Part shown: positions 11,401-57,971 of the stretch, piece after piece
Layout: each line of letters opens with the position of its first letter
How positions within the stretch are numbered: position 1 is the stretch's first letter
Assembly (NCBI RefSeq): GCF_003589595.1
Contig: NW_020653945.1
Location: 25,133,007-25,197,006, forward strand
Length of the DNA stretch: 64,000 bases
Direction of reading: 5' to 3'
Origin: Hyposmocoma kahamanoa
Taxonomy: Eukaryota > Arthropoda > Insecta > Lepidoptera > Cosmopterigidae
The notes under the pieces: model-generated
The model's database searches: none
What the model saw: only the letters and a program-made list of their open reading frames with translations
Told to the model about the DNA's origin: nothing
Translations under genes and position numbers: made by a program

Positions 11401-11793
11401 TGGTATTCAACTTTCAACGATATGCCAACAGAGTAAAGTTCAAATTATATTAACAGTCCAGAATTTGTTATTTCTTTTGAAATTTGAAACTACGACCAAT
11501 TATTATGAAGATTTCATTGTGTTTCAAATTATAAATGTGTGAGTTTTCGCGGGAGTAGTGGTTCTGATAGTAATCGAGACTTAAGCCACTTCCATTTGTT
11601 TTTATTGCACAGACATGCTACTGCAGCGTAAAAAAGCGACTGTCTAATTTGAACGCGTCTTTACTCTAAATAAGATTTATTTGGCCATTATTATATTGAT
11701 GTGGTTTAAATATCAGAGTAATATAATTACAAATTCAAATTTGTTTGCCAAATAATCCATTAAGTAAGAAACATACACATACAAGTACTGTAC

Positions 11794-15803: not shown

Positions 15804-15971
15804 AGTATAAAAATATTTTAAAAAATCACAAAGCATTACTAACGGATTGAATTCTATTTGCAAAATTGTACACATTTCTATTTTAAAGGACGAAGTGTAG
15901 TACATTCTATAAAACGACAGACGTTGCCTGAATGTGGCTGGTATACTCCGGCGGTCCGTTGTTATTTCTTT
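15804..15971 (-). CDS. Candidate internal exon of an unidentified minus-strand gene
   Basis: Acceptor GTTTCAATTTCAG, donor ACT|GTAACG; 56 codons, phase 0 on both sides: KEITTDRRSIPATFRQRLSF, then YRMYYTSSFKIEMCTILQIE and FNPLVMLCDFLKYFYT. Basic first half, hydrophobic second half. I do not recognise it. It could follow the candidate at 17402-17587, which also ends in phase 0. Confidence 0.25.
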
Positions 15972-16726: not shown

Positions 16727-16828
16727 ATGGATATTTATTCTAACGTCGAATTGACTGAAATGGTGCGACTTTATGCAATAAGTGTCATTGTCATTGTTAT
16801 TGTTGCTGTCTCACTCGGCGCTCGCTTG
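16727..16828 (+). CDS. SLC6-like gene exon 1: start codon and TM1 first half
   Basis: 34 codons from ATG with context AAAATGG. After MDIYSNVELTEMVRLY comes a strongly hydrophobic run ending AVSLGARL, which aligns with the family TM1 motif AVGLGN. The Asn that binds Na1 in LeuT (N27) is replaced by Ala, and the following Gly-rich turn is changed. The chosen donor is TTG|GTAGTA (phase 0). A second phase-0 donor at 16858 (AGC|GTAAAG) would add ten residues that include FP. The amino terminus before TM1 is very short for the family. Confidence 0.6.
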
Positions 16829-19800
16829 GTAGTATTCCCAATGCACTCGAAATCAAGCGTAAAGGGAAACGGTTTATTCCTATGTATACTTCAAAACACA
16901 TTTTGTTGATATTTTTTGTTCTATCCCATATTCTAATTTTATTTTAGTCTATGTTAAGTTGTAACATGATTTACTATGACAGATATGAATATGTCTCACT
17001 TTCAAATATACAGCCTCTATAATCAAAATTAAAAAGACAATAAAAGGTTATAAAGATTAATTAAAATAAAATAAAATTAATAAATACAATTAAATTAAAT
17101 AAAAGCCAAAATTTGAATTAAAATTACACGTACTACATAATTTATTAATGTCTAAATCGATTGCCTCCATAATCGGCACCATAGCAGGCATGCTTATCAC
17201 TGCAGTGCCGAATATAGGGGGCAATCTAACCTGTCAGCTACGGTAGCCGGGACGATATTGGGGCTGGCCCGCACTCTGCGCACCAGTGATACACACCTTT
17301 TGCGCACAGTTGTTCCTAACTGTAATAACCGAGGCGCTGCAGGAGCGGGGCAGCCCCAATAACAATCAAGAAAATTTAAGAACACGAAGATAGGAGGTTA
17401 CCTTCTGCAATAGTTGAAGCTGGTGGTCTTTATGTTGTATGTATGACCAAGATTCTAGTTCAAAAGATCTAGAAAGGTTACCAGCGCTCATATTCCACTG
17501 CCTGTCTCTTAACTCTTGCAGGGGTTCCGTTAACGATGATCCACTGTCAGACTCTTCTAATTCTAATGATTGCGTTGAAATATTCATTGCTGTTGCAAAA
17601 CGTAATCTTCGAATTGAAATAAAATGAGATATGTTATAAAGCGCGATTGTTAAAATCACTTTCACAATGACAGTCAATGATATTGCTATTTTTTTTTTCT
17701 ATTCTCTAAGCTATTCCAGAGTGTAGGACCAAAAAAAAGTTCAAGCCGTCCATAGAGAATTCGAGAACGTATTATTTCTTTCTCCTAAAAAGAACATTAA
17801 AAACGTGTAAGACAAAAATGAAAATGAAAGCAGCTGCACGGGTGTGGCGTTGAATATAATTCGGATTCAAGTAATATTTTTTCTTATTAACGAAACTTTT
17901 TCCACAACCTTTTTCTATTACCAAATGTTTATTTCAAAATTATACTCGGGAGATTTATTTATTTTGCTTTGGCGTTCTTTATACTTTCCACAGGTTCTTT
18001 TTGTGGAATTTACTTTCTTTGTAAGTACTTTATGCTTTGAAGACATACGAGTAATAGGTATTTACTGTATCATTATAGTCAATCAGTACAATACAAATAC
18101 AAGTGATTGAATGAATAATAAATTATTGTGTAAAATAATCTCAGTACAGAGTATTAAAAACCCGACCTCAAAATTACGTGGAATTGCATATAATTACCAA
18201 GTTTGATTGAAATCGGTTACCGGAAAGTGCACAAACCCGGATTCATCCCCTAGTTCGCCACTACAAGGGGTTTGACACAGGAGATAATAAAAACCGGTTC
18301 TCACTACTCAGAGCGAAAAACGCCTTGAATTGGAGAATAGCAAAATCAACCATTAAAATAATTACTCCTTATAATAAAATTTAGCAGCTATTTATAAAAA
18401 TGAATCTTCATGCGTGAACGTGAAATAATTTTCTTCAAAATTAAATGGGACCACTATGGAGGTACCCTCTTTCCAACAAGAAAAGAATCATGAAAATCGG
18501 TTCACAAATACCGGAGTTATCGCGTAACATACATATAAAAAAAAACACTGTGGAATTGAGAACCTCTTCCTTTTTTGAATAAATTGTTGTTTAAAATAAT
18601 ACATAAGTGAAATTGATGAGTACCCGTTGCAACATGGCATTAATGGGTATGCCGCTAGATGGCGTTGATGCGTTTTGCTTGATTTTTGCATCGCAGTGTT
18701 GAGATTTTTGCTTGAGTTTGTGACTCCTATCGACCGATTTCAACTAACCCCGCCAGATTCTGGCGAAAGTGTCCAATACCACCTACTTTTGTTTTTCTTT
18801 CCGTCATACTAATTCCCTGTATTCTTATCCAGTACCACATCGTTAAGCATCTTACACAAAATTCGAATTTCATTGCATCGCTTTACAGTGACGCGGAATG
18901 CTCCGTACGACAGGCATGTGACTTACCATGAGATTCGGGCATCTTTAGGCATAGGCATGAGTCAAATACAATCAATACTTCACAAACATTTGGGTGTGAA
19001 AACACTGTGCTCTCGGTGGATACCACACAATTTGACTGAGGCTCAAAAAACGGATCGCGTCACTTGGTGCAATGCCATGCATACCAAATTCAACGAAGGG
19101 GCGTCAAATTTGGTGTGGGACATAGTAACAGGTGACGAAACATGGATTTATAATTATGATCCCAAAACAAAGCAGCATTTCGAGATGAGTCGAAACCGAC
19201 CAAAGTGGCGCGCGTGCAAAGTGCCTCTAAGCGAATGATTGCTTCTTTTTTAAATAAAACTGGATACGTGGTTACTATTGCTTTGAAGAATCGTTGTACT
19301 GTGAATAGTGATTGGTACACGACCATTTGTTTGCCGGAAGTTATTAACAACCTCCGTAAAATTAACCGTAAACCGGTTTATCATCTTGCACCACGATAAT
19401 GACAGTTCTCACACTGCCAGACACAAAAATGAATTCTTGAATTTTTTTTGCCTCTGCAAAAAAAGCTATTGTACCCACATTTAGCTGTCTATTCGAGTAA
19501 TAAAACCGCCACTTTGAAATTTTATCACAATAACGAACGTGTCAAGCAATGTGACGTCACATTTTTGACGCACCGCGTGCACATGTTTTCTTTACTCATG
19601 TGCCGCGACTAATGGCCGCGAAAGAATATCGCAATGCCAAGCATGGCCATGGCAAGACCACATCTGAGTTTAAAACATTTTGACAGCTCTGCACGGTAAT
19701 TTTATCAACGTAAAATTTGAGCGCCACAAACGAAATAAACAGATACAATAAACAAAAACAGGTTGTTACATATTGACTATTGGAAAAAGGTGAGGAGAAA

Positions 19801-22800: not shown

Positions 22801-25800
22801 CCTCTCAAGCATAGGCCGTGGGTATGAATACGGGCTCGCACCTCTGAATTTCTCGGAATTTATGTGCAAAATTTATTTTTTGGTGTTAACCCTACACGGC
22901 GAGAGGTTCACAACTCTCAAAAGACGTGTAAAGTTTCCAACCCGCATTAACTAAATTTAAAACCTCGCCTGAGAGGAGACCCGTGCCCAGCTGTGGGTCG
23001 AACTGGGTTGATCATGATGACGATGATGCGATCCGAGTGAACTCGAAACGCTTTTTTTTTATTACATAAATATAAGTTAAATAAAAATTAACACGTAAAG
23101 AGATAACTTATTCTACACTTAAAATTTAGCACAAAATGTAGTATTTCATAATACGTGGAAAATTTTAGGCAAGGCGGAAATCGAATTATATGGGCGCCTC
23201 GCCACTGCTACAAATTTTCTCCAATGAATATATTTATTACGTTAAGTTTTAACATTATGTTTCATTGTTGTTCATAATATCACATGATGATAAGGGAAGA
23301 ATATAAACAAGGATGAAGACTCTCAGAAAATCTGCTTACATATTATTATGGACATTAAGCAGATGGTCACTGCGGCCTCGACTGCGCTACTGGACTCTAT
23401 AGTAAATTAAGTTTCAAGTCTGAGAATGCTCAACGACATGAGCTTTGGCTCGACAAGGCAGTTGGAATTTGCATTAAAAATATCCATTACCAGGAAATAC
23501 AGTACATATAATGTATAGTACAATACGCATAATCAACATAAAAGCAACATGTCTTATACGAACAGTTTGATCTGATTCTTTCATCAATATTTTCAGAAAG
23601 AGACGCAGTCGTTACGTAATCCAATACTTATGACCACAATTCAACGACTCGCTTTCTTCAGTGCCTATATTACTCTCACCTACAAAAGTGAAATTGTTAC
23701 TACATCACAAATTGATTTCTCTGTGTAAGTTTTAGCTTTATTTGACCTCATCGTTTCACCTCCACTAGAAAGATCCATCTATTTATACTCCAGCCAAATT
23801 TGGTATGGAATAAATATCATCAAACAAAAATATGAGTTTTAGGGTTTACATCTATTTTTCCCCGAATTTCCATTAAGCTATTGAAAATACCAATCTGAAG
23901 GTCATGTCTGTGTTGTTCAATAAAAGTTACGGATCACTAGTAAGTTAAAAATTACCAGCAATTTTATTTATAAAACTGTGCCATCCCTAATGATTTTTGG
24001 ACTTGAAGGGAGAGATGGCAAACATTCAAATTCGAGTAGTAATTCAAGTTCAAAATCTGAAATTGATGGTGGATAAAATGTGTAGCTAATTAACATAAAA
24101 TAAAATCTTACAATTTTTTTCCTTTTCATCTACTATTTCCTACTATCTAGCAGTAATTATTAATGGGATTCAAAAACTTAATTTCTTTGTATTCATGAAT
24201 AATAAGTATCAATAGGTATTGTGTAAACTTTAGAATGATTGACTTGGTAAATATTACTTTTGCATAATCCAGTTGTCTGCTCACAAATTATTTAATTTCC
24301 AATTAGGCGAGCAGGCTGTAGGCAGAGCTGACCTGATTAAAAAGCTTTAACAAAAAATGTTCTTTACACCTGCCATCATTGGTTGCCAAGCGACGTTTTG
24401 TCATTAAACTTTATTTATTTTTGAACGATTTACAGCATATTTTTAACAATATATTTATTTTTATAAATTAAATAATAGTGTTAAGTAACAGGTAAAAGTA
24501 CTAATTACAAATCTCCACTAGTAGCATAAAAATATTAAGGATTTAGTAAGCAAATCTAAACATTGTTATTAAAATATAAACAACACATTATTTTACACTT
24601 TGAGAAATCACAGGTACACGTGCCAATGCAGGGAAAAAAAGAAAAATATTTAACCACACACAGCCCAACCAACAACACGCAAATTTAAACACAGGAGACG
24701 AAGCAATGAGAGATAGGTACTTAAATAAAATATAGCTTAGTAAACATACGTCAGATCGAGAGTACCCTAGTACTAAACAGATCTATGTCAATAGAATAAA
24801 TAGTTCTATATCTAATTTGGCATAGATTTTAAAACATTGTGGTTATTCATAATAACTATTATCAGTGATTACAGGTTCTTTACCGCAGTGTGACTTAATT
24901 TTACTTTTCTGATATTTTGGAACGGTTTATGGTCATGGATTGACTGGCCAGCGGTTATATATTATTAGTTATATTATTGCGATTTAAAGCTCTCAGTGGC
25001 ACTGCAACTGTTTTGGATAGGCGTGTCTCCGGCCTCTTTCACCAATTTCTCATGCTTGTATTCAAGTTAATATTACCTTATTTTCAGATACATTGCTACA
25101 GTAACCATAGATATGATAATGAAGAACCTTCCACAATATTTTGTGATCATGTTTCTCAGTTGTTATTCATCGGAAGAGCATCTGTACGTTTCGAAAATGG
25201 TACCTCTATTTTGGGGTACGTAAATAAAGTCATATCTCATTATTTTTGTTATTATAATTTATGCATAATGCACTAATACAGGTTTCTTTCTCTTATAATG
25301 ATCTAGCACAATGTAAGTTGAAATCGAACATGGACCTTTTTTAAGATCAATATCATTGAGATTGGAAATAAATTATTATCATTGCATAATAAAAGCAAGA
25401 GGGCAACTCCTGCGTGTTCGGCGCGTTAATGCCCTAGACTCTAGACTTTGCTCGGAGTGTAAGGTTGTTACATTGTTATTTTAATTGTACCTATAGGTTG
25501 AAAACTAATTTGAAAAAATTAAGTTGTTCATCACTGTATTCTCGTGCTATATACATTACGTATTTATAATTTAGTAGCATTAGACCTCCTTGTGAATAAG
25601 TTCGTCCAGGGTAGTACTGCGACCTTACCTATTTCTGTTACCAAGCAGTAATGTTAGCATTACTACTATGTTCCGGTTTTGAACAGCAAGGGTGCTTTTG
25701 AAGTTACAGGCATATGAAATTTGTCAACTTATGTTACGGTTACGTTACAGGGTTACGGGCGCAGTAGTTAATAGCCTTAAAAATTTACTAGATCATACTG

Positions 25801-49800: not shown

Positions 49801-52800
49801 CATTTTTCTTCTATCCACTGTTCTTCTCTTTTTTGCCTATGGGGGATTTTATAACAATGACATTCTTATGCGCAAGAGCGTTTCTTGAATTGATGTTATT
49901 GGTAAGTGCTGATGCATTTTTTCCTAAAAAGATAAGTATTTTAGTTCCTAAACTTAGATGTTCTAAACTGGCTGTTTTTGGCTCCGATAACAAACAGTTG
50001 TTAGTAATTCATTACGTATTTTGTGTATAGTCAAGGGCAAATATATACATGTAACCAAGGAATTGTTTTCAAAATGTAATGCTTAGCTATGATTATTTTA
50101 GATATATTATTAGACAGGACAAGTCACCAATCAGTCCTTTTTCAGACGCGATTACATATTTTTAATAAGAAAATGTTTATGATACTCGTTTAAAACGTTT
50201 GAAGGTTTCATATTTAAATCCTTCAAAGGCCCATCTCTATAATCTATAAAAAGATATATTATCAAGATATTGTTTTGAAAATATTATGCTTAGCTAATAT
50301 TTCTTTTTAGTTACCCATCAATACTCGTTAGTTGCGATTACATATTTTCGATAAGAAAATGGTTATAGTAGTTGTTTGAATCCTTTGAAGGTTCCATTTT
50401 TGAATCCTTTTAACCGCTCACGCGATACATGCAGCCGTAGACGCATACCACACCTAGAGGTGCCGGTGATGATTTTATACCGATTTATCGGATATCGAAG
50501 TTATAACAGGTAAAAAAACTAATATTAATTGCTATTTCGGTAACTACTCTAGCAAACTATAAAGTTTTTAATGCCTGGGTCTGTCATTTAAAAAAAATAA
50601 ACAACTTCAAAAATACGTCACGACAATCGTGTGTGTTATTGTTTGGGCTGGTGACTTCGGTGTTTACTTATTGAAAACATACCGTAAGTAGCGTTTTTTA
50701 AGTATACCCTGAATATAAATGTTTATAAACTATACTTTAAGGAGTAATTTCATGGTAAACGTTAGAACCACTCAAACGGAATATTATCATATTTATCCAA
50801 ATACACCAAAAATTTCATTAGTGCTTTTTAAGTGCAGGATTGGTGGTGTATTACTGCATTTTATTTGAGATGTTTTTGTTGGTAGTACGGAGGGTATTTG
50901 TTTAGCAATGCAGAATAATAATTTTGATTTATAAAAACATGTATTTAAACTGAATCCTTTTCTATTTTGCGAAACCAAATAGCCGCCATTTTGCGGTAGG
51001 AGGAGCGCATCGCGTGAGCGGTTAAAGGTTTATCTCTATCGGGAACAATTGCTTATGACGAGATTTTATAGGGACATTCAATTAGTAAGGACGTAGAGCC
51101 AGTCAATAGCGAGCAATTGGTTGGCACAAAAATAATCATCCCAATGAGAATTTCACCATGCTCATGAAGCAGTGAGCCCAAAGCTCTAAAGCTTTCAGGA
51201 AAAGCACGACAAACGATAATCGTCGGTCTGAGAGACCAATACGATGGTTAAGATCGATATTTGCAAACAATTTTTTTTCCTTATTAAAAGCTAGTCTCTT
51301 GTTCAGCGCTCTAACTTTGATTTCCTGATACGAGAAGACATAAAGTTACTCCTTATCTGATCCTTCCAAGAAAACTGTTGTGACGTATCAGATGCCGAAA
51401 CATCTTTCCCATTCAGTTCTTTATTGCCTTTAGCAAGCTTCTGTTTTTCTGGTCTATTGTCAACAAATTCTTATTGGAAATGAAACTTTTTTTTGGATCT
51501 AAATCGCGAATATTCGTTTTTTTTTAAACCGACGTTTTGGGTTATTCCCATCCGATCCCCTATAATGAATCCGCTGCCAATTTTAAATCCCAACTGATTC
51601 CCTCTATATTTTGCAACTCCCAACGAATCTCCTATTTATATTTGTAAGGTAAGTACAATCAAGGGAAAAATAAGTTTTAAAATCAAATATTCATTTATTG
51701 AAAAATGTTATAATTATCACGAACAATAAAATTTTCTTGTGACGCCATAAATATTTACATTTTGTAAATCACAATAACAAAAAATCAGTTGTAAGTAATA
51801 TTTAAAATATAACTTTAATGTTATAATTATCACAGAATCAATTTATTTTGTGACATGTTTATTTGAGATCCGAAAAAAAATGTTTTGAATAATTTATGTG
51901 CAACAATCACGAAAACGTTACTCTTTCCATCCAACTGATACTGATTATTTACTATGTACCTTAATATCAAAAAATTCATTGCAGGCTGCCACATTTCAAT
52001 GTTTGGTAGAAGTATTGTACTGTGAATGGCCATGGCGATTTAAAAAATTTCGAGTGAGAAAATGGATAATATCTATAATAATTTCAGTAATTATATTAGG
52101 GCTATACTTCGTAACACCATTTTATGTAAGTTTGACTTTAATACAGAAAATGTAAATGACTCATTTTGGATCGTCCTTTTTACCATAAATGGGAGTAACT
52201 TGGCTTTGTGACGGAGAAAAGTTATATACACTATTCAGAAATTCTTATCCTAAATTATACGTAAAAAATAAATGTACATAATATTAGTGCTCTAAGATAC
52301 AGATGTAGTGAAATAAACATGGTATCATTTAGTCAATGTCTAACGTGGTCAAATAAATGCATGTGTTATTATTAAGAGGGAGCATTCCAAAAAAGTTTTG
52401 ACGTTGGCTGCGCCCAAATTTGTGAAACAAATATATGCCTGAAGTTCGCGTGACACGCGACAGGAGATGTTGAATTTTGCGCATTAAAAGTACCAAATTC
52501 GTTTTAGCGGAATAATTCTAAAACTAAAGGGATTAAAAAACAATCCGTAGTGACAGTTCTCGATCATGCCTAAAATAATTATCTAATTTTTGTCCTAATA
52601 ACCTGTAGCATTTCGAGGATGAATCGAAAAAATGTGAAAATTAGAGGTCATTTCGTGATTTTTATCTATCGAGGTTTCTGATTAGTGTCTATGTTTGAAT
52701 ATATCGTGTAGTTACTCATACAATATTTTATTTTTAACTTTAAAGTGGATATACCCCTCTAAAATCAAATCGAAGATTAGGAAGTTTTCCTCTGCTCCCT

Positions 52801-55800
52801 CTTAACTTAAAGAAGTGGCAATAATGTTCGAAAATATTCGGAATTTCCGAGTTTTCCCGATTTTATTCACCACACTTGAACGACACAGGTTATTCTTAGA
52901 GCGGTTACCTACACCAGGCGACATTTAGCAGCAATGCAAACGCGATGTCGTAGTCTACCTTTACACACACGCGCGATTTTAAGAAGCAATGCAAGCTCGC
53001 GACTGCATCGCTGCTTATATTAAGTCTTAATTCGCCTATAATTTTGACAGAAATTAAAACATTTTTTAAATATTTCCTATATTAAAAGTGACGATACAGC
53101 TAATGCAGTATTTTTAAAAAAACGTGCACATATCTACGCGAGAAATGAAAAATCTACCGTTTTGGAGTCGGTTATATAAATTGTTTTTTTTTTTCAGGCG
53201 CGAATGTATCTTTATGGAGTCAGTCAGGTACTGTCGTGCCTATTAGAAATACTCATAATAACACTTTTCTACCCAATTGGTAGATTAATGGACGACATTA
53301 CCTTCCACCATGGTTCTCCACCGGCGAAATTAAGATTCTATACATTATTAATTTTTCCTGTCTATTACACCGTAAGTAGATTATTACAGGGACCGGGAAG
53401 TCAGTGATTGCTTGACGAGTATGAGTGAGTGAGGCCTTGTATAGACTAGTCAGGCAATTCTCTTTTCCGCCTTGGCACATAACGTGGGTGTAACACGGAC
53501 GGAAAATATTTTAAATATTGTAGATAGTATATTTAGCTTAATAGAGACCATTGACTTACAATTATATGGACGTCGGGTCCGCGCTAAAAAGTGTCCGAAC
53601 TTATGGGGCGTTAAAATCGTATACAGAGCGTCATTCACGCTTTAGTCTTCGTTTGTTCGACTGACAGCGAAGCAAGCAAAATTAGACAGTACTGCGATGA
53701 CATTACAATTTAAATTCAACGTTCTAGCTTTTTCATATTCCTTTACATGTCACTACGTTTAAATACTTGGGACATTTTTTTCGTGGTTTTTGTATTAGAC
53801 CCGTCGTCCATTTATTTATAAGTCAATGATAGAGACGTTATTTTTAATTTAAAAGTAAGTAATAGTGCATACAAAGATTTAAAAAAAGTCGCTTGCCTCT
53901 CCTGAGAATCGAACTAACAAAGTGTGAAAAATAAACATTCTGTAATTTTATGATGCCGATCTTAGAGGGTTTGCGCATTACGTATTGTGTATCTGGGGTC
54001 TACACTCGATCTCCGTCCGACATCCGTCCGAAACAATTACTGTCAAATAAGTAATATTCGACAAAATTAAAAGACAAATATCCAGTATGAAGCTTCATTC
54101 GCATCACGCGTCTTTTCATTTGGTCAAGTATTGCTTATTTGGCAGTAATTGTTTCGGACGTAGTCGATTGGGCAATCGACATCCGAAATGGGTCCGAGTT
54201 TTCTAGATGTCTATGGTCTCGGATTCGGAACGACTAAGTATCGGATGCAGTACGCAATGCGCTAAGAGTCAATTATGAGGATAAATTACTGCCAAGTAAC
54301 ATATTATTATAAATGAAAAGAATACCATGAAATTCAAGAAAATGATGTATATAACTCATTTTACTGATGATATTCGCACTTCAAGATGGCGCTTCGGCTC
54401 AATAATCGAAGAACGGCCGAGCCTGTATAAAACACAGGGTTATTTTTAAAATAAGTAACATCATAAATGATAACTTTTTGTTCAATTTTGACAAAATAAT
54501 AAATTTTCCAAAAATAAACTTTAAGTTTTTTTGTACATTCTGACACGCGAGGTTCTTAGTATTTTACAAACAACGCTTTTATTATCACAACGATGCATGC
54601 GAGGTGATAATAAAAGACGAAAGAATGAAGAAGAAGATGTAGGTATAAACAGAAAAAAATAAAAAGTTTATTTTACCACCTCTTTCTTTGAAAAATAAAG
54701 TGTGTAGTGTGGTGTGGTAATTATCGATATATTAAAGGCATTATAGTAAAAAATTATAAACCAGTTATATAAATTATAAACAAGCAGCCTGTATGACAGT
54801 TTTTCCTTAATTTGTTTACATAGTTCGTTGTTAAGAATGACTACTTTTCTGGCCTAGGCCGGTAAAGATTTGCATAGATAAATAACAAACGTTTTCTTTT
54901 TTTTTAAATACGTATATACACACACCAGCATATTTAGTGGAACATTAGTAATACGATGGTAAAGATGTTCAATAAAATAGTAAATATTACTGTGCTATAA
55001 TGCAGTGTTTGTTCAAAAGTCTGGTCGGTTATTTTGCTTTTTGTCTTAAGTCTAATTTAAAAATAAAGAAATTTAGTCGACTGATTTTTTTTTCATTTAT
55101 TTGTTACTAATACAGGGTTTGTCCAGTGATTCGAGGTTGAAAAATTTGGTAACTTAGTTGAATTATGTTTTATTTTATTTGAATTTTGTTTGTTGAATTT
55201 TTATTTTATTTACGTACTAAAATTTGTTTTAATCAATGCGTGTGTGTTTTAAATTTAAATTTTCAGTTATTTTTGCCTGGTCACAAAATCCAAAAAATTT
55301 AGTTAGTTTAATTTCGATTTAATAAAAATAGAGGTTAAATAATAAGTCGATGTTAATGTAGTTACTTGCTGCTTTATGTTTAATTCTTATTTATTTAAAT
55401 ATTAACACGTTATTTTATTTTTATGCTAATTGTTTTGTTTTGTGCAGAACTTGGCAGAATTTAGTATAGTTTTGGGGAGATAAAAAATATATATAATATT
55501 TCTAATTCGTCTTTCGACAAAGGTGTGATAACGATAAGTGTGTGATATAGTGAAAACAATAACAAAAATTTACCAGACAATCACACTACTCTGCTTTCAA
55601 ACAATGTTAAGGGTTTCGCAAAAGATTCCAAAGTTACGAAGTTAACTCTAATATCAAAATCACAGTCAATTTAGCAAAGTTAGCTTCTTAAATTAGTCCT
55701 ACTGGGTAAGGAGTCTGGGTCGTTCAAAATGTTATCCACTATTGGGACAGCCTGGAGCCTATTTTTCCAAAATCACAATATTACACGCTCAAAGCAAATC

Positions 55801-57971
55801 TTTTTTTTTCCCAAAAGTCATAGTTACACAACTATAGTAACCTAATAGAATGACGGTTGCTTCTAAATTAAAATTGATGGTTCAAATCTTTGAGACGACA
55901 TATGCATATGATTGTAATTTCTAACTTTGTTTTCACAACTTTTGGGAAACGTGTGAAATTCGGCCAGAAGTGGACTATTATGGCCATAGCTATGGCCTAA
56001 ACCCTTCGAAGAACATTAATTATTGATACAAAGATCGAACACTAAGAAAAATTCCTTCGATCGGGCTGAATTCGGACTAGCGCCTTACCATACCTGACCA
56101 TAGCGCATACCGTTCCTGACCGTCTCCCAACTGAGCTACGGAACGAACGGGCAGACCTTACGAATGTTTCTGTGTAATTGTTGTTTTTGCCGTAGCGCCA
56201 TCTGTGAGAAATCTATGAGTCATTCTTTACTAGCCAAGTACCTTTACAGGTACCAGCGCAGCGGCTGACTAGAGATGTCGCCATAATAATTTAAATATTA
56301 AGGTCATTGAATATTACCTGGTTTTACTACCACGATATTAAATTTTTTTGTTGTGAATTGTTTCCATTAGTTTGTTATAATTATGAATACAACGACCGAA
56401 CACTAAAAAGTGTACATTGCGTTGCGACGATGGCGATTAAAAGCAATTCTTTAGAATATAAAATGACAGATCTAGTGTCTGTTTTTGACATTTCAAAACA
56501 CCAAACGTCGTCACAAATTGTGTTGTGTATAATTTAATTCAGTTTTTAATGTAATCCGCCTATATTTAATTTAATAATTATATACTCCCCGAATTTTGTG
56601 AAAAAAAATAAATAAAAAAATAAAAATCCAAATTGAAAACAGAGATGACCGAAATATGAAGTTGGCGTGTTCATCGGAGCCAATAATATTATATTTCTGA
56701 TCGGAGGTATCAAAATGGCATCTATATAGCTACAAGTTTCGAGGAATTCATATACATTTAGACGCAACTCAATTACTGGCGCAGAGTTGAACCGTCGAGA
56801 TGCATCATGTTTTTCGCCTATAGCATATTCATCTTTATTTTCCCGTTATTAAGGTACAAATTTGTGTTATGCAAATATAGAATCACCGCACGTTGCCGTG
56901 CGTTACTTGCGAGAGACGCTTCGACTCTGCGCCAGTGTGTCTTAAAGTTTAATTTTGCAAACCCAGGTAATAGCATTCCTTTCTTCACTTAATGTAGTAC
57001 ATGGCATTTTTGTGGCAACTAAGTAAGATGGTCTTATCAGTTTTCAAAAGAATACATTTTCTACTAATCATCGTATAACTACCACTTCTTCTTATTGTAT
57101 CGATGGCATACACTGTAGTGTATGCCATCATGGTGAAAGGATTTGTCAATCGGCGTAAGGTACTGGCCGATTGATTTCCAGTTGCGCCAGACGTACAGGA
57201 AAGGAATGGTACGTCGTTCGGGGAGGCTTCTTTCGTGCACCCCTTTGTAGAATTATATTAACATGACCTATAATTTAAAACAGTGAAGTCAGGCCATTTA
57301 ATAATGATGATAAACTGAAACAACCTTAGTAACTTTTTATTCGATAGTTTTAAAAGTAAGAATGAATGAATGAACGAGGGCAGCGATATGGCAGCCGTAT
57401 TAATTGTCTATTAAATTTAGTTTAGACTAGGTATTATTTCAGACGTTGCACTGACTTAGGTTGGAAAAGAAAATAATTTTATAAAGTATTGTTATTTCTG
57501 AATACTATTACATTATACTAGTTGTAATGTTTTGAGAAAATGTATGTGTATCTATATGTAATATACCTTACTTATATTGTAAAAAAGCCGCTATCTACTA
57601 AATGCAAGCGAGTAGAGCAACATACATTAATGTAGCGCTGCGTAGCGTTTCGTAGCAGTTCTACGAAACCTATTGTAGCGCTACGTTGCAATGGTATAAA
57701 AAATGTTCAACAACGGTTTATTTTGTCTTTTCAGTTCAAATCGTATAAAATTTTGCGCTCCCTGATAACATTTCCTTCTATGGATTTTTACAAACTGCAA
57801 TCTTTTAAAACGTTGCAAAGTCAATTGGGTTCATTCATCCATATATATTGGCTAATAAGTATTATTCCTTTAGCATTGGGCTTTGTCTATGCTATTGTCA
57901 AACACGTCTTTATAAATAAAAAGGTAAGGTTTACTATTAGTAGATTTTTTAAATACTATTTATCTTATTGA
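16727..57971 (+). CDS. Divergent SLC6-family (neurotransmitter:sodium symporter-like) membrane protein, 13-exon model
   Basis: Proposed join: 16727-16828, 20056-20138, 25088-25215, 29548-29665, 31914-32078, 39506-39626, 46001-46132, 47059-47139, 47292-47427, 49789-49901, 51985-52125, 53198-53371, 57735-57971. This totals 1731 nt, about 576 residues plus stop; SLC6 proteins are usually 550-700. Every junction is GT/AG and phases agree throughout (0,2,1,2,2,0,0,0,1,0,0,0). Order of family landmarks: TM1-like helix, K-S-G-G, YSSEE..VSKMVPLFWG, QLPWTRC, extracellular loop 2 with two N-glycosylation sequons, TM4-TM8, CLVEVLYCEWPW, IGRLMDDITFHHGSPP, last helix. SLC6 proteins are 12-TM plasma-membrane symporters for amines or amino acids. 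Here core ion-binding motifs are lost, so transport function is uncertain. Family membership is strongly supported; exon 2 and the 3' end are the weak points. Substrate and subfamily are unknown. Confidence 0.85.
17180..17365. repeat. GC-rich insert of unknown type
   Basis: GCACCATAGCAGGCATGC to GAGCGGGGCAGCCCC is far richer in GC than its flanks. On the minus strand it encodes TTVRKRCVSLVRRVRASPNI, which resembles retroelement-derived sequence but no named domain. Confidence 0.35.
17402..17587 (-). CDS. Candidate first coding exon of an unidentified minus-strand gene
   Basis: ATG at 17587 opens 62 codons to a GTAACC donor: MNISTQSLELEESDSGSSLT, then EPLQELRDRQWNMSAGNLSR and SFELESWSYIQHKDHQLQLL-QK. 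The acidic, Ser-rich, Gln-rich composition differs from the translated AT-rich noise around it and looks like a soluble amino-terminal domain. No family is recognised. If real, its gene would run leftwards across the first exon of the SLC6-like gene. Confidence 0.3.
18145..18560. repeat. Repeat family P, longest continuous copy
   Basis: Starts AAAAACCCGACCTCAAAATT and runs through CGGATTCATCCCCTAGTTCG, GCCTTGAATTGGAG, TTCATGCGTGAACG to CGCGTAACATACATATAAAA. It serves as the reference for the interrupted copy at 5015-6035. Confidence 0.85.
18860..19460 (+). pseudogene. mariner transposase fragment
   Basis: Codons from 18873 read YHEIRASLGIGMSQIQSILH (helix-turn-helix), LTEAQKTDRVTWCNAM, and the first catalytic motif TGDETWIYNYDPKTKQ with its Asp intact. 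A deletion or frameshift near 19190 and loss of the region after the HDN motif inactivate it. Same family as the copy at 44696. Confidence 0.9.
19590..19800. repeat. Repeat V copy 1
   Basis: AATGGCCGCGAAAGAATATC, ACATTTTGACAGCTCTGCAC, TTATCAACGTAAAA and GGAAAAAGGTGAGGAG recur in order at 58205-58395. Class unknown. Confidence 0.75.
20056..20138 (+). CDS. SLC6-like gene exon 2 (tentative): end of TM1 and loop 1
   Basis: The acceptor CTTTTTTCAG leads in phase 0 to ENFFCSFTKSGGVAAL, which lines up with the family segment R-F-P-Y-L-C-Y-K-N-G-G-G-A-F-L: K-S-G-G matches K-N-G-G. An open frame runs on to CG|GTGAAG (phase 2), which fits exon 3. The last dozen residues, and the donor, overlap a repeat-like palindromic sequence (20102-20270), so a transposon may have changed the exon end. 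It was chosen because the phase and the missing motif both fit. No better exon was noticed between 16.9 and 25.0 kb. Confidence 0.4.
20102..20270. repeat. Palindrome-rich repeat abutting the tentative SLC6 exon 2
   Basis: ACAATCTGAACAGATTGT at its start is a near-perfect palindrome. GTTACAGGCGAATGTTCCCG and GGTGAAGGAG recur inverted and direct (CCTGTAATGTTCGC, GCATGTTCGCGGTGAAGGAG). Probably a small transposon that overlaps the end of the exon candidate. Confidence 0.55.
20336..20388 (+). repeat. SINE family S1 short fragment
   Basis: CGCAGAGGTCCCGCGGGCCG GGATAAATATTTGTATA corresponds to the B-box region of S1. Confidence 0.5.
20515..20735 (-). repeat. Repeat family R copy
   Basis: Holds CAGTGCCACTCAGAGC, GCGCCTGTAATTTCACCAG, CTTGGCGGCAGAAATAGG. 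Further copies are near 25605, 46320, 47450, 48945, 61345 and 62695. Confidence 0.8.
20850..21045 (+). repeat. Possible LINE 3' tail
   Basis: Ends TGTGTCATTGTTCCAATAAA followed by a T-rich run, the look of a polyadenylated 3' end. No coding part is attached. Confidence 0.35.
21137..21556. mobile_element. MITE with 22-bp terminal inverted repeats
   Basis: CTTAGAATAATAACGCATAG-AA (from 21148) and its exact inverse TTCTATGCGTTATTATTCTA-AG (ending 21541) bound a roughly 420-bp non-coding element; outer bases CGCTGG / CGCAGG continue the match imperfectly. It ends 14 bp before a 10-N gap. Confidence 0.75.
21570..21579. other. Assembly gap, 10 N
   Basis: Ten N between the MITE and a SINE. Confidence 1.
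21600..21830 (-). repeat. SINE family S3, fullest copy
   Basis: On the minus strand: GTTCATTCCGTGGCTTAGTT, GGTATAGCGTCTGGCACGG, a GGTTCGAATCCGACC B box, then body GAGTGTTCGATCTTTGTATT and a tail TTGAATATCAATTCAATAAA. A tRNA-like head with both boxes makes a Pol III promoter. Confidence 0.85.
22139..22612 (+). pseudogene. Non-LTR retrotransposon, C-terminal part of ORF2
   Basis: Reads MEYCSHHWDGSAHYLLAALD, SVERKATRLINNN, HRRKVTCLVFYRIHFGECAQ, RRSGALHSYVVDIPRIRTKR and FASSFL, the post-RT region of a lepidopteran LINE. A frameshift after FASSFLMRQ breaks the remainder. Confidence 0.85.
22765..23030 (+). repeat. SINE family S2 copy
   Basis: Head GCCTATTGCTTTGACTTACC ACCTCTCAAGCATAGGCCGT with A and B boxes; middle GGTTCACAACTCTCAAAAGA; end CCCAGCTGTGGGTCG..GGTTGATCATGATGACGATG. 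Confidence 0.85.
23030..24830. other. No recognised feature (intron 2)
   Basis: AT-rich intronic sequence of the SLC6-like gene. No domain or paired repeat ends recognised. Confidence 0.5.
24840..24965 (+). repeat. Penelope-like terminal-repeat fragment
   Basis: GATTACAGGTTCTTTACCGC, then CTGATATTTTGGAACGGTTT and GGTCATGGATTGACTGG match the block at 63455-63552 (ATATTTCGGAACGGTT, GGTCACGGGTTGACTGG). This style of sequence is common near Penelope-like element ends. Confidence 0.5.
25088..25215 (+). CDS. SLC6-like gene exon 3: TM2 and first intracellular loop
   Basis: Acceptor TTATTTTCAG, donor GGG|GTACGT. The frame beginning one base into the exon reads YIATVTIDMIM, then KNLPQYFVIMFLSCYSS, then EEHLYVSKMVPLFWG. 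It aligns without gaps to the family pattern FLIPY...GIPLFFLELALGQYSS.GP...W..MVPLFKG. The Gly-Gln before YSS became Ser-Cys. A longer open frame over the same bases (24977-25276) is a shadow in another frame. Phase 2 in, phase 1 out. Confidence 0.85.
25605..25780 (+). repeat. Repeat family R copy
   Basis: GTCCAGGGTAGTACTGCGAC, CAAGCAGTAATGTTAGCATT and GTTACGGGCGCAGTAG are shared with 48950-49095. Confidence 0.75.
26128..26651 (+). pseudogene. Non-LTR retrotransposon C-terminus and 3' tail
   Basis: Reads RQNLATYERRTGGGRALRNA then GTLKSVAHRTELATRNPRVI, a CR1-like LINE C-terminus. Codons for LYSVDEFLLNQF follow after decay. Ends with a (TTCTA)n microsatellite tail at 26636. Confidence 0.7.
26652..26992. 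mobile_element. MITE with about 27-bp inverted ends
   Basis: TCACATGACAAGCGCTCAAC-GCGCGTT at the left pairs with the inverse of AACGCCCGTTGAACGCTCTT-CATGTGAA at the right. Non-coding, about 340 bp. Confidence 0.65.
27071..27430 (+). pseudogene. Penelope-like element: GIY-YIG endonuclease fragment and 3' region
   Basis: The frame around 27150-27290 reads GVHNCDCERGLSSIGQPKRS then ICTRVKEHIADV, which matches the GIY-YIG domain of Penelope-like elements (GVY...C.CG..YIGQTKRSI..R..EH). GIY-YIG catalytic spacing is decayed. The following GATGGTTTCTCCGTACCACC block recurs at 38800. Confidence 0.8.
27430..28030. other. No recognised feature (intron 3)
   Basis: Strongly AT-rich, without recognisable domains. 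Confidence 0.5.
28035..28232 (-). pseudogene. mariner transposase C-terminal fragment
   Basis: Minus-strand codons read YPEFYRKGLNDLPIRWQKCI then DNEGKYFD and a stop, the usual mariner C-terminus. The catalytic domain is missing. Confidence 0.8.
28455..28921 (+). pseudogene. Non-LTR retrotransposon 3' end
   Basis: ENCIRFYNKIPENILRLSFP then KFKTYIKSILIEKSYYKIED is a very common lepidopteran LINE C-terminus. The 3' UTR ends GAATAAATGATTATTTGACT-TTGACTC, a polyadenylation signal plus short tail. Confidence 0.85.
29211..29496. mobile_element. MITE family A copy 1, hAT-type
   Basis: TIRs CATTGACTTACAATTATATG-GACGTCGGGTC and the inverse of GACCCGTCGTCCATTTATTT-GTAAGTCAATG. Perfect 8-bp target duplication GTGCTATT on both sides. 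Ends 51 bp upstream of SLC6 exon 4. Short open frames within it are not genes. Confidence 0.95.
29548..29665 (+). CDS. SLC6-like gene exon 4: TM3 up to LPWT
   Basis: Acceptor CACCTGTTTCAG, donor CTCG|GTAATT. In phase 1 it reads FNLQIILSSLFSLNFGMDAA, ELQWYLVLDGFISQLPWT, ending exactly with the family hallmark LPWT. The first split codon restores the Gly of PLF.G. The conserved IYYNVI of TM3, whose Tyr contacts substrate, is replaced by a stretch with Asp and Glu (GMDAAELQW). The exon was found by requiring phase 1 in and phase 2 out between exons 3 and 5, so the LPWT match is an independent confirmation. Confidence 0.88.
29880..30370 (+). pseudogene. RTE-type LINE C-terminal fragment
   Basis: Reads MTYGSETWSLTIGPIKKFKV, TPRAMERAMLGISLRDQIRN, INKLKWQYAGHIDRRTDGCW and GRKVLEWRPRTERRS, the end of RTE reverse transcriptase, closing with the RTE-style ATGATGATAATGATG tail. 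Confidence 0.9.
30370..31600. other. No recognised feature (intron 4)
   Basis: Mixed composition with a moderately GC-rich patch at 30680-31000 (GTCTGCGACGTGTGACGCAA). No domain identified. Confidence 0.5.
31606..31893 (+). repeat. SINE family S2 copy next to SLC6 exon 5
   Basis: Head CTCACCGCCTCTCAAACAGA, B box GGATTCGAATTCAAG, body GGTTCGCAACCCTCGAAAAT, end CCCAGCAGTGGGACGTATAA-ATGGGTTGATAGTTATGATG. The acceptor of exon 5 begins right after this tail. Confidence 0.9.
31914..32078 (+). CDS. SLC6-like gene exon 5: extracellular loop 2
   Basis: Acceptor TTAATTTGCAG, donor TTTGG|GTAAGT; phase 2 in and out. The split codon gives R, so the join reads LPWTRCHGNKTIKC, matching the family LPWT.C(N)8C. 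The two cysteines correspond to the loop-2 disulfide. Two N-glycosylation sequons are present (NKT, NRT), as expected for this loop. The exon ends NSFMEYFG, matching the conserved EYF/EFW before TM4. A tRNA-type SINE ends about 20 bp upstream of the exon. Confidence 0.88.
32184..32589. mobile_element. MITE family D, about 406 bp
   Basis: ATCGCATACGTTGCACTGAC-CCCAAAGTAA at the left pairs with the inverse of TTACTTTGGGGTGTGGGCAA-CGTATGTGAT at the right. It starts 106 bp after SLC6 exon 5. A rearranged relative lies inverted at 36905-37130. Confidence 0.85.
32703..33005 (+). mobile_element. 5'-truncated GC-rich non-LTR element with poly(A) and target duplication
   Basis: GC-rich 3' region (GCGGCCGGGCGGCGTCGTGG, TTTCCCCCCCGTC) closing in A-rich AAAAAAAAGAAAAAAAGAAA. 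It is flanked by 13-bp repeats GGGAGTTCCCTAT (32690) and GGGAGTTCTCTAT (33006). The translated frame RAAGRRRGECSLTPRRRLNR resembles R1-clade 3' sequence, a guess. Confidence 0.7.
33020..33600. other. No recognised feature
   Basis: AT-rich intron 5 sequence without recognised elements. Confidence 0.5.
33620..33830. repeat. Two S3 SINE pieces fused head to head
   Basis: 33620-33694 reads as minus-strand S3 (GGCCGGATTCGAACCGACGT), then 33695-33830 as plus-strand S3 (CGCCGGTTCGAATCCGGCGA, ACTAGTGGAATAATT). The two B boxes face each other, forming an inverted repeat. Confidence 0.75.
34121..34642 (-). mobile_element. piggyBac-like MITE family B, copy with assembly gap
   Basis: Begins CCGCTCACGCGAT and ends CTGTGAGCGG, with ATAA on both flanks. 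Internal sequence is the reverse complement of the complete copy at 50414-51021, and the 100-N gap falls inside it. Confidence 0.85.
34449..34548. other. Assembly gap, 100 N
   Basis: Round-number gap within a family B MITE; the missing piece is probably repeat sequence like 50515-50710. Confidence 1.
34812..34900 (+). repeat. SINE family S3 fragment
   Basis: GTTCCGCGGCTTAATTGGTA TAGCGTCTGACACGG is the S3 tRNA-like head, joined to a short piece of body. Confidence 0.7.
35425..35925 (+). repeat. LINE 3' untranslated region with (TCTA)n tail
   Basis: Contains GGCATGGCTTACTGGGCTGC, CAGTATTTATGCCGAGTCAG, then GCTGAATAAACGTGTTATC and (TATC)n. Polyadenylation-like signal plus microsatellite tail is the pattern of lepidopteran LINE ends. 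Confidence 0.6.
35917..36030. mobile_element. MITE family F, left-truncated copy
   Basis: From AAATAAGTAATATTCGACAA to GCAGTAATTGTTTCGGACG, near-identical to 54042-54160. Confidence 0.8.
36347..36795. mobile_element. MITE family C, about 450 bp
   Basis: CAGAAATAGAGACGAAAT (36369) pairs with the inverse ATTTCGTCTCTATTTCTG (36757). The match extends outward imperfectly to CTGGAACATCGAATATATAA and its counterpart. Non-coding. Confidence 0.85.
36905..37130 (-). repeat. MITE family D relative
   Basis: AGGCGCTCACAACGAGGAAA, GGAACCTAAGCACG and GTTGCCCGCCGTGTGC are the reverse complement of parts of 32300-32390. Confidence 0.75.
37223..37433 (+). repeat. SINE family S2, internally deleted
   Basis: AGCCTAATGGTTTGACCTAC TGCCTCTCAAGCAGAGGG head, deletion after GTGGGTTC, and end CAGCAGTGGGACGTATAAAT-GGGTTGATGATGATGA. 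Confidence 0.85.
37471..37690 (+). repeat. Repeat family P, internally deleted
   Basis: Starts ACCGACTTCAAAAAAAGGAA, includes TCCATTCGACTGCATG and GATAACTCCGGTATTTGTGA, then jumps to GATTTCAATAAAACTTGGTA and GAGGTCGGTTTTTTTAGTAC. Both termini are retained. Confidence 0.8.
37735..37935 (+). repeat. SINE family S3, divergent copy
   Basis: CAGTCGCTGGTTCGAGCC B box, then GATCTAAAGAATTTTTC and TTCGTTCTTTGTATCAATA. The head is altered. Confidence 0.6.
37950..38475. mobile_element. TIR element related to family P
   Basis: AAACCCGACTTCAAAATTTT at the left pairs with TTTTTTTGAAGTCGGTTAAA at the right. Internal duplicate: ACCCTTTCAAACAAAAGAAG.../ACCCTTTCAAACAATAAAGA. Non-coding. Confidence 0.7.
38670..39222. 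repeat. Penelope-like fragments, inverted end sequences
   Basis: GAAATGAAACTATTTTTCCG-GATTTAAATCGCGTATATTT (38706) recurs inverted at 39174-39212. Between them are GATGGTTTCTCCGTACCACC and GGGCCCGAAACGTCGGTTTG. The last phrase is characteristic of Penelope-like element ends. Confidence 0.6.
39506..39626 (+). CDS. SLC6-like gene exon 6: TM4
   Basis: Acceptor CATATTGTTACAG, donor TGGAAG|GTAAGG; phase 2 in, phase 0 out. Reads NLRHHNIISTKDLLTLLIRF then SLFLLCVLSGFTFFKKWFWK. It corresponds to the family stretch S.GI.DLG.I.W.L.LCL...W...Y....KG, i.e. the end of loop 2, TM4 and the start of intracellular loop 2. The other frames contain stops. Confidence 0.85.
39822..40105. mobile_element. MITE family A copy 2
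   Basis: Same element as at 29211 with an 8-bp target duplication TATATAAT at both ends. It lies about 195 bp after SLC6 exon 6. Confidence 0.95.
40415..40514 (-). repeat. SINE family S1 truncated copy
   Basis: CGAACCTGGGACCTCTGCGT and GGTAACCGTTCGGCCACGGA give the tRNA-like head on the minus strand; the body is mostly lost. Confidence 0.8.
40520..41395. other. No recognised feature (intron 6)
   Basis: No family resemblance or paired termini were found. Confidence 0.5.
41395..42650 (-). pseudogene. Non-LTR retrotransposon ORF2 C-terminal half
   Basis: Open minus-strand frame 41878-42477 reads LIDQNLSFKNHIINLSGKIR, YFALCQSLITHCISVWGTVN and FLGPHLYNKANKI, typical post-RT LINE domains. Upstream codons give WLRNNMLTLNADKTQYICFF, the motif after YADD. 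An (ATT)n-rich 3' end lies near 41395. The first half is missing. Confidence 0.88.
43128..43208. repeat. Imperfect CA microsatellite
   Basis: Runs of ACACACACAAATAATCACAG and CACACGCACACACAAACGCA. Confidence 0.85.
43258..43472 (+). repeat. SINE family S1, complete copy
   Basis: Head ACTGCCTCCGTGGCCGAACG GTTACCACG with A box, B box CAGGTTCGATTCCCGGG, body GTGGTTGTCTATGTGTGTGT and an (TTA)n tail. Reference for the family. Confidence 0.9.
43472..44118. other. No recognised feature
   Basis: A 124-codon open frame from 43905 overlaps the MITE at 44120 and has no family resemblance. Confidence 0.5.
44120..44547. mobile_element. MITE family E, 428 bp
   Basis: GGTGGGTATTCATTACGTTC and the inverse of GAACGTAATGGATACCCACC are 20-bp TIRs with one mismatch. 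Internal GCGCGAAGC repeats. Non-coding. Confidence 0.85.
44696..45957 (-). mobile_element. mariner element, nearly full length but inactive
   Basis: TIR core ACTATAAGTTTCCGGAA (44703-44719) is matched exactly by TTCCGGAAACTTATAGT (45934-45950), and the match runs outward imperfectly. The minus-strand frame 44681-45424 holds LTEAQKTDRVTWCNA-type, TGNETWIYSYDPKTKQ, RIILHHDNASSHTARQ and YSPDLAPCDFYLFP. The first catalytic Asp (TGDETW) is Asn, and the DNA-binding part upstream (to 45790) is broken by frameshifts and stops. Confidence 0.92.
46001..46132 (+). CDS. SLC6-like gene exon 7: TM5 and the loop to TM6
   Basis: Acceptor TAAATTTTACAG, donor ATTATA|GTGAGT; phase 0 on both sides, 44 codons. 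Reads VMSVAYWTINCIYLFCLLYV then LLKYFEDGVPNIKRTITYIP and HEII. It aligns with GKVVY.TA..PY..L..LL.RG..LPGA..GI..YL.PDF. The DGV..I...ITYIP part preserves the loop pattern. The right inverted repeat of a mariner copy ends about 43 bp upstream of the exon. Confidence 0.85.
46320..46580 (-). repeat. Repeat family R copy
   Basis: AACAAGTCGTACACCTGATG, CAATGCCACTCAGAGC, TCTTGGCGGCATAAACAG as in 20515-20735. It begins about 190 bp after SLC6 exon 7. Confidence 0.8.
46655..46785. repeat. Repeat U copy 1
   Basis: GTGAAAGGATTTGGCAATGG, CGCCAATTATACAGGAAGGG and TCCTTTCGTGCACCC recur in order at 57133-57242. Class unknown. Confidence 0.75.
46788..46855. repeat. MITE family B end fragment
   Basis: ATCATCACCGGCACCTCTAG GTGTGATATGC, then GCATGAATCGCGTGAGCG: terminal part of the family seen at 50414. 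Confidence 0.75.
47059..47139 (+). CDS. SLC6-like gene exon 8: TM6
   Basis: Acceptor ATCTCCTGTTACAG, donor CATCCA|GTAAGT; phase 0, 27 codons beginning DAAFPSIGLSITAPPILHVL. It corresponds to the family V-DAA-TQIFFSLGPGFGSLIA. DAA is kept. The unwound SLGPGFG centre, which lines the Na1, chloride and substrate sites, is replaced by GLSITAPPIL. The open reading frame is clean but the catalytic core is not conserved. Confidence 0.83.
47292..47427 (+). CDS. SLC6-like gene exon 9: TM7 and extracellular loop 4
   Basis: Acceptor TTCTGTTTCCAG, donor CATTATA|GTAAGT; phase 0 in, phase 1 out. Reads VDAGWDSGVLVSYCFIYVVF, then RATVDFCVKLNVEADIGFAY and NLPHY. TM7 aligns with D.LIVSFINC.TSF..GFVIFSVLG, and ADIGFAYNLP with the loop-4 pattern GPGLAFI.YPEA. 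The intron to exon 8 is only 152 bp, unlike the multi-kilobase introns elsewhere. Confidence 0.82.
47450..47640 (+). repeat. Repeat family R copy, 23 bp after SLC6 exon 9
   Basis: CTCGTTCAGGGAAGTACTGG, CCTATTTCTGCCGCCCAGCA and GACAGGCGCAGTGGCAGTGC. Confidence 0.8.
48945..49210 (+). repeat. Repeat family R, fullest copy
   Basis: TCGTCCAGGGTACTGGTACC, GCCGCCAAGCAGTAATGTCA, GGTTACGGGCGCAGTGGCAG, AGGCGCACGACTTGATGGTC. Reference copy for this unclassified 265-bp family. Confidence 0.8.
49789..49901 (+). CDS. SLC6-like gene exon 10: TM8
   Basis: Acceptor TTCATTATTTCAG, donor TTATTG|GTAAGT; phase 1 in, phase 0 out. The split codon gives N, followed by MYSSFFFYPLFFSFLPMGDF and ITMTFLCARAFLELMLL. 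It fits TM8 (FW.ILFFLML.TLGLDSQF..VE). The Na2-binding Thr-Ser/Asp-Ser region becomes MGDFIT, so the sodium site is probably altered. A longer open frame around it (49683-50030) includes intron sequence. Confidence 0.83.
50414..51021 (+). mobile_element. piggyBac-like MITE family B, complete, 608 bp
   Basis: Perfect 13-bp TIRs CCGCTCACGCGAT/ATCGCGTGAGCGG, flanked by TTAA on both sides, the piggyBac target site. No transposase inside, so non-autonomous. Confidence 0.9.
51985..52125 (+). CDS. SLC6-like gene exon 11: loop and TM9
   Basis: Acceptor AATTCATTGCAG, donor TTTTAT|GTAAGT; phase 0, 47 codons: AATFQCLVEVLYCEWPWRFK, then KFRVRKWIISIIISVIILGL, then YFVTPFY. This is one of the clearest family matches: VE.L...CEWPW matches VE.L.TALCDEWP.L, followed by a basic stretch and a hydrophobic TM9. 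The acidic residue before W-P is kept. Confidence 0.9.
53198..53371 (+). CDS. SLC6-like gene exon 12: TM10 and TM11 start
   Basis: A 13-nt pyrimidine tract and CAG precede phase 0 ARMYLYGVSQVLSCLLEILI, then ITLFYPIGRLMDDITFHHGS and PPAKLRFYTLLIFPVYYT; donor ACC|GTAAGT. GRLMDDITFHHGSPP matches the near-invariant SLC6 signature (N-R-F-x-D-D-I-x-x-M-x-G-x-x-P), and the K...Y.....FPV part matches W...W.F..P. This exon alone makes an SLC6 assignment very likely. Confidence 0.92.
53549..53828. mobile_element. MITE family A copy 3
   Basis: Same element as at 29211; 8-bp target duplication ATAGAGAC perfect on both sides. A few bases are missing internally. Confidence 0.95.
54025..54160. mobile_element. 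MITE family F, complete 136-bp copy
   Basis: CGTCCGAAACAATTACTGTC AAATAAG pairs with the inverse of CTTATTTGGCAGTAATTGTT-TCGGACG; one mismatch in about 27. Confidence 0.85.
54170..55835. other. No recognised feature (intron 12)
   Basis: Very AT-rich; no domain or terminal repeat pair was recognised. Confidence 0.5.
55838..56010 (+). repeat. SINE family S2, old copy
   Basis: AACCTAATAGAATGACGG head, GATGGTTCAAATCTTTGAGA B box and GGAAACGTGTGAAATTCGGC body, much decayed. Confidence 0.55.
56018..56165 (-). repeat. SINE family S3 copy
   Basis: GATCGAACACTAAGAAAAAT TCCTTCGATCGG, and CCAACTGAGCTACGGAACGA, the reverse complement of the tRNA-like head. Confidence 0.75.
57102..57129. repeat. Perfect short palindrome
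   Basis: GATGGCATACACT and its inverse AGTGTATGCCATC with a 2-nt loop. It sits directly before repeat U copy 2 (57133-57242). Confidence 0.9.
57133..57242. repeat. Repeat U copy 2
   Basis: GTGAAAGGATTTGTCAATCG, GTTGCGCCAGACGTACAGGA, CTTCTTTCGTGCACCCC; see 46655. Confidence 0.75.
57735..57971 (+). CDS. SLC6-like gene exon 13: TM11-TM12 region and C-terminus
   Basis: Acceptor TTGTCTTTTCAG, phase 0, open to TGA at 57969-57971. The helix YWLISIIPLALGFVYAIV matches TM12 (GW.....SM..IP..A). It ends HVFINKKVRFTISRFFKYYL-SY, a short basic tail. AATAAA at 57982 follows the stop by 11 nt, with GT-rich sequence downstream, which favours a terminal exon. An alternative is splicing at AAAAAG|GTAAGG (57923), but no credible further exon was found. 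Confidence 0.75.
   Translation, partial: FKSYKILRSLITFPSMDFYKLQSFKTLQSQLGSFIHIYWLISIIPLALGFVYAIVKHVFINKKVRFTISRFFKYYLSY

Follow-up and report, generated by a model that had tools for sequence, protein, structure and literature searches.

The window analysed here (64,000 bp; contig C733, positions 25133007-25197006) and the DNA to its left carry two genes, A and B, on opposite strands with their 5' ends turned towards one another. For gene A, on the plus strand, 12 exons were recovered between 23597 and 57971; all introns are GT-AG with compatible phases (phase chain 0>2>1>2>2>0>0>0>1>0>0>0), and the joined reading of 557 amino acids terminates at the stop at 57971. A preliminary description of this DNA had proposed a single 13-exon gene at 16727..57971 for a very divergent SLC6-like transporter. 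Twelve exons with proper borders and phases and the same final stop were recovered, but not the first exon at 16727, and the gene, real in itself, proved to be one of a pair. The exons of gene A are as follows.

23597..23724, plus strand: exon 2 (TM1 region), 128 bp, phase 0>2; pairs with gene B 15971-15844
25088..25215, plus strand: exon 3 (TM2 region, VPLFWG at its end), 128 bp, phase 2>1; pairs with gene B 14800-14673
29548..29665, plus strand: exon 4 (TM3, LPWT), 118 bp, phase 1>2
31914..32078, plus strand: exon 5 (extracellular loop 2, cysteine pair), 165 bp, phase 2>2; called by splice and phase rules
39506..39626, plus strand: exon 6 (TM4), 121 bp, phase 2>0; called by splice and phase rules
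46001..46132, plus strand: exon 7 (TM5), 132 bp, phase 0>0; the weakest call, without a partner in gene B
47059..47139, plus strand: exon 8 (TM6), 81 bp, phase 0>0; pairs with gene B 1810-1730
47292..47427, plus strand: exon 9 (TM7), 136 bp, phase 0>1; pairs with gene B 1132-997
49789..49901, plus strand: exon 10 (TM8, FYP), 113 bp, phase 1>0
51985..52125, plus strand: exon 11 (TM9, CEWP), 141 bp; 13.4 bits against the SLC6 HMM jointly with exon 12
53198..53371, plus strand: exon 12 (TM10-TM11, YPIGRLMDDI), 174 bp; 13.4 bits against the SLC6 HMM jointly with exon 11
57735..57971, plus strand: exon 13 (TM12 and stop), 237 bp

The landmarks of an SLC6 protein were found in the joined reading in the order first described, namely VPLFWG, LPWT/RC (which spans a junction), CEWP (previously given as C.EWP) and RLMDDITFHHGSPP. 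It was likewise correct that no frame exceeds about 80 codons of coding sequence, the longest exon of the gene, exon 13, comprising 78 codons and the stop.

Gene B was located by comparing the translated window with itself, which gave minus-strand segments colinear with the gene A exons, and flanking DNA was added. The gene extends on the minus strand from 17587 to a point 3361 bases beyond the left edge of the window, and its reading without exon 7 is 571 residues long.

17402..17587, minus strand: exon 1 (hydrophilic N-terminus, ATG start), 186 bp; no evidence other than an open frame with a phase-0 donor, and no partner in gene A
15844..15971, minus strand: exon 2, 128 bp
14673..14800, minus strand: exon 3, 128 bp
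13604..13721, minus strand: exon 4, 118 bp
11783..11968, minus strand: exon 5 (extracellular loop 2), 186 bp
7060..7180, minus strand: exon 6, 121 bp
6159..6558, minus strand: run of 400 N in the intron after exon 6
1730..1810, minus strand: exon 8, 81 bp
997..1132, minus strand: exon 9, 136 bp
C733:25132143-25132031, 25131249-25131121, 25130198-25130025 and 25129860-25129645, minus strand: exons 10-13, left of the window

The TM5 exon of gene B (exon 7) was looked for in the sequence of the locus and was not found; the intron expected to contain it holds the run of 400 N, which may conceal it.

Exons 2, 3, 4, 8, 9, 11, 12 and 13 could be recognised in one or both copies with no use of splice rules, and plain similarity paired them. 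The A-B pairs of exons 2, 3, 8 and 9 emerged from a plain comparison of open reading frames with one another, and exons 11, 12 and 13 of gene A were visible in the open reading frame lists, with pairing scores against gene B of 81, 154 and 96 (runners-up 38, 39 and 41). Exon 4, first spotted in gene A with an SLC6 consensus, paired with a score of 50 against 33 for the runner-up. Exon 10 was found first by a splice and phase scan and then paired by plain similarity (71 versus 43). Splice-based scans for A-B pairs, the first of which was dominated by repeat copies that were then masked, gave exon 5 with a score of 37 (next different pair, -2) and exon 6 with 32-36 (24 in a wrong-strand control). 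Exon 7 was picked from gene A alone, among 41 candidates, by splice scores, length and hydropathy. The exon model stands above chance, because its borders recur in gene B on the opposite strand.

Several other candidates were rejected. No exon 1 of gene A was recovered by similarity to exon 1 of gene B. In a scan for this exon restricted to ATG-started candidates, the start exon previously placed at 16727 fell below the donor cut-off and was not among the three candidates that passed it; it resembles nothing in gene B, whose exon 1 is hydrophilic, and lies inside the first intron of gene B on the opposite strand. An extra exon between exons 9 and 10 of gene A was dropped, as exon 9 corresponds to TM7 and its phase fits directly onto exon 10, and an assignment of exons 8 and 9 to TM5 and TM6 was replaced by TM6 and TM7 given exon 7 and the profile alignment. 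The apparent A-B pair 40443/2175 was discarded because the DNA itself looked alike there by eye, which suggests a repeat. A short open segment at 57079-57165 (plus strand) resembles gene A exon 13 (score 45) and may be a relic duplicate or a chance likeness; it was not accepted as an exon, since no acceptor lies between the upstream stop and the segment.

The two copies share an architecture and also a pattern of constraint. Eight of the 11 shared exons (2, 3, 4, 6, 8, 9, 10 and 12) are equal in length, with exons 5, 11 and 13 differing, and all shared phases agree. The proteins align by BLASTP with an E-value of 2e-87 and are 40% identical over 497 aligned codons, identity being high in exons 3, 8, 12 and 13 (22/43, 13/24, 29/58 and 32/68, respectively). 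Over the same 497 codons, identity at codon positions 1, 2 and 3 was 0.545, 0.604 and 0.380, compared with 0.267, 0.296 and 0.264 expected from composition, while the NG86 method applied to six of the exons (237 codons) gave a dN of 0.63 with dS saturated. No stop or frameshift was present in the 12 exons of either copy. Computation thus shows that A and B are constrained as proteins, with frames intact in both, and the shared architecture together with the codon-position pattern argues for purifying selection on both proteins and not for pseudogenes, in keeping with the original suggestion of a functional but fast-evolving gene. That both copies might nevertheless be pseudogenes, decaying from an SLC6 gene that once functioned, would fit the loss of core motifs described below and the failure to recover a first exon for A and a TM5 exon for B. 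This is extremely improbable, however, given that splice sites, phases and open frames are kept across 12 exons per copy, that codon positions 1 and 2 are far better conserved than position 3, and that the missing exon of B coincides with the intron holding the 400-N run.

Relationship to the SLC6 family, a group of strongly conserved membrane proteins that serve as drug targets, was examined at several levels of sensitivity. Neither A nor B matched PF00209 at E <= 10 with partial or full models, and none of the 89 listed PF00209 places in the moth's own genome lay on contig C733 (82 of 112 candidates scored). The preliminary description had named a missing SNF-profile hit for the joined protein as grounds for abandoning the SLC6 assignment, and taken formally the result is of that kind. 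An SLC6 HMM and profile were then built from 110 of 120 listed SLC6 proteins, 10 being left out by length. Against this model, exons 11-12 of A scored 13.4 bits and whole A 10.3 bits, values reached by none of 4000 class-shuffles and none of 3000 shuffles, respectively; a partial A (exons 2, 3, 4, 6, 8 and 9) scored 5.4 bits, a moderate excess, as 12 of 4000 shuffles scored as high. B alone did not rise above its shuffles (2134 of 3000 reached its score, as did 676 of 4000 plain shuffles for partial B). When A and B were combined, local hhalign alignment of the joint profile, which consists of two sequences only, with the 110 SLC6 proteins gave probabilities of 96.5 and 96.0 (E 9.5e-10 and 4.6e-9) and was colinear over 451 and 453 columns, whereas the best of 60 class-shuffled A+B alignments reached a probability of 8.2%; global mode gave one aligned column, so that only the local alignment is informative. 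Searched against PDB sequences, the A+B profile gave eight matches at E <= 10, seven of them dopamine transporters, the best being weak (E 0.086), and phmmer with partial A alone gave no match among PDB sequences.

Intron positions provided a line of evidence of a different kind. The introns of seven ordinary SLC6 genes from the same genome were mapped onto the SLC6 HMM, SLC6 junctions with large gaps between their sides being left out, and those of gene A were placed through the profile alignment. Six of the 11 gene A introns coincided exactly in position and phase with SLC6 introns: 113.33; 190.67 and 505, both using the donor side of junctions in gene g540 whose sides differ by 2 and 4 codons; 228, which depends on gene g648 alone; 356.33, mapped via a residue five positions away; and 394. 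Two further introns lay within 3 codons of SLC6 introns in the same phase, and three (69.67, 152.67 and 308) had no in-phase match. None of 200,000 random sets reached six matches, and 120 shifted versions reached at most one. When the junctions touching exons 5-7 were removed, four of seven introns still coincided, a number again reached by none of 200,000 random sets; this reduced test also took one poor g140 junction at 505, which left the union unchanged, as g540 has an intron at 505.

These results also bear on the view that A and B come from some other, unrelated family of multi-pass membrane proteins and resemble SLC6 through chance and hydrophobicity. It would account for the missing Pfam match and for the unremarkable score of B alone, but is very unlikely, because class-shuffles that keep the hydrophobic pattern fail to reach the scores of A or of A+B, the intron positions coincide with those of SLC6, and dopamine transporters top the PDB search. 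Greater weight was given to the profile-profile and intron tests, which outweigh the missing PF00209 match. Together with the nearest PDB sequences, they indicate on computational grounds that A and B descend from an SLC6 gene, so that the SLC6 membership first proposed appears sound as a statement of descent.

The residues retained and lost point to an altered protein on a retained scaffold. Of the SLC6 columns, 130 are at least 95% invariant; 96 of these could be mapped in A, which keeps 35, and 81 in B, which keeps 30. The 24 kept in both copies include the extracellular loop 2 (EL2) cysteine pair, PW, YP in TM8 and E in TM10. The two cysteines, C126 and C134 in A and likewise conserved in B, correspond in the alignment to C135 and C144 of DAT, and an EL2 disulfide is predicted in both proteins; EL2 also carries sequons in both. 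The TM1 columns of SLC6, by comparison, found no alignment in A or B, and the two copies have in common a K-x-E in the TM1 exon. TM6 reads FPSIG..PPILHVL in one copy and FALLS..PPILHVL in the other, with PPILHVL around the TM6 break in both, and the LGLDS of SLC6 TM8 reads LELML in one copy and TDFMI in the other. The ion and substrate motifs of TM1, TM6 and TM8 were not recognisable as those of SLC6 in either copy. In SLC6 proteins, the motifs lost here coordinate ions and substrate, as PMC8310414 describes in part. A crude hydropathy scan called 10 segments in A and seven in B, none of them in exon 2, and overcalled a 12-TM DAT control at 14, so that the topology given here is provisional.

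As the TM1 and TM8 motifs are absent, ordinary transporter function is not supported, and of the SLC6 transporter originally proposed it is the descent that finds support. We consider it unlikely that A and B are still ordinary ion-coupled symporters of the SLC6 type whose rebuilt core works with other residues. Such a core would suit the whole-length scaffold, with its cysteine pair and its TM2, TM8 and TM10-11 landmarks, and the high A-B identity in exons 3, 8, 12 and 13, and there is precedent in the lepidopteran SLC6 transporters KAAT1 and CAATCH1, which work with altered TM1 ion residues (PMC8310414). KAAT1 and CAATCH1 are, however, recognised SLC6 transporters, and A and B are far more diverged, with a TM1 that lacks any alignment and LGLDS lost in both copies. 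The reading preferred here, with a probability of roughly 70%, is that A and B are an old duplicated lepidopteran pair of SLC6-derived protein-coding genes whose products are probably no longer ordinary Na+/Cl- symporters. An SLC6 (neurotransmitter/amino-acid:sodium symporter) gene would have duplicated long ago to give A and B in opposite orientation, and their products would be membrane proteins in which the SLC6 scaffold persists but the standard Na+/Cl--coupled cycle is lost. From sequence we would infer, as their most likely role, that of a non-transporting or re-purposed carrier, acting as a partner or chaperone, in a receptor-like manner, or as a carrier that is coupled differently; the tissue would be a guess, perhaps one with fast gene evolution such as germline or gut. 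We give even odds to the broader proposal that A and B represent an SLC6-derived lepidopteran class in which the ion and substrate core has been replaced, comprising pseudo-transporters or proteins with other coupling (for example, K-x-E standing in for bound ions), and which SNF-domain surveys miss.

The known systems closest to the pair include the SLC6 family (PF00209), which the pair resembles in landmark order, the EL2 cysteine pair, intron positions and phases and a colinear alignment of about 450 columns, and from which it differs in lying below Pfam detection and in its missing TM1 and TM8 motifs. Drosophila Ntl offers an analogy as an insect SLC6 protein specialised to one tissue, the male germline, although every residue regarded as critical to transport is reported to be present in Ntl (PMC3029318). 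The aphid bicycle genes, for which it is established that gene structure can outlast sequence likeness (PMC9168663), evolve fast and are identified by their structure when sequence searches do not find them; they share only this detection principle, being an unrelated family of putative gall effectors. A silkworm survey that counted 16 SLC6 genes required an SNF domain (PMC5085708), and genes like A and B would thus have been excluded. Two further reports describe transporter novelty in early Lepidoptera for SLC2 and SLC22 (PMC11837612) and a pipeline that overlooked one highly divergent SLC7 gene of a fly (PMC7487162). No report of such SLC6-derived genes was found in the open-access literature searched. 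Surveys by SNF domain can overlook family members that are still within reach of profile-profile comparison and gene structure, and a pair held under selection with unrecognisable ion and substrate motifs would amount to a natural experiment on what the scaffold does without ordinary transport.

Further copies were sought at three scales. A search of the genome (728 Mb) with a 380-residue model of A gave 12 matches, nine on gene A and three on gene B. The A/B profile, run over the window with 50 kb of left and 40 kb of right flank (154 kb in all), recovered 12 exons per copy, which match by construction. Among 5.77 billion database proteins, no relative of A+B was found: 4316 word-sharing candidates for the partial models gave none at E <= 1, and 6778 for the full models gave none at E <= 10. 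As this search needs shared 5-residue words and similar lengths, relatives may exist. With neither a PF00209 match nor a database relative, the earlier expectation that ordinary annotation may miss the gene seems well founded.

Some additional features were noted in the genome and at the locus. The dopamine transporter gene of this genome, set against 17 named SLC6 proteins, came out nearest to the lepidopteran ones, in agreement with the lepidopteran origin assumed in the preliminary description. A segment at 17898 (plus strand) scored 9.5 bits against TM8-TM9 in the A/B profile, probably by chance. Open frames of about 590-620 amino acids at L004 (C8:12357543-12358991), L006 (C1579:7465653-7467107) and C645:4226828-4228141 match PF00209 over most of the profile with no internal stop and appear to be further divergent SLC6 genes, intronless in the matched part; L004 and L006 are about 22% identical to DATs. 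Two transposase remnants, at 18813-19235 (plus strand) and 45445-44681 (minus strand), both contain ETWIY.YDPKTKQ and are presumably mariner-like. Fragments at 153-629 and 22121-22612 (plus strand) and at 42477-41878 (minus strand) are taken to be reverse-transcriptase-like, of LINE type, and L010, an open frame of 157 amino acids lying about 19.5 kb beyond the left edge of the window, is assumed to be integrase-like. Segments at 43259-43438 (plus strand), 7659-7480 (minus strand) and 4715-4499 (minus strand) represent a single repeat, perhaps SINE-like, with similarity in several frames at once.
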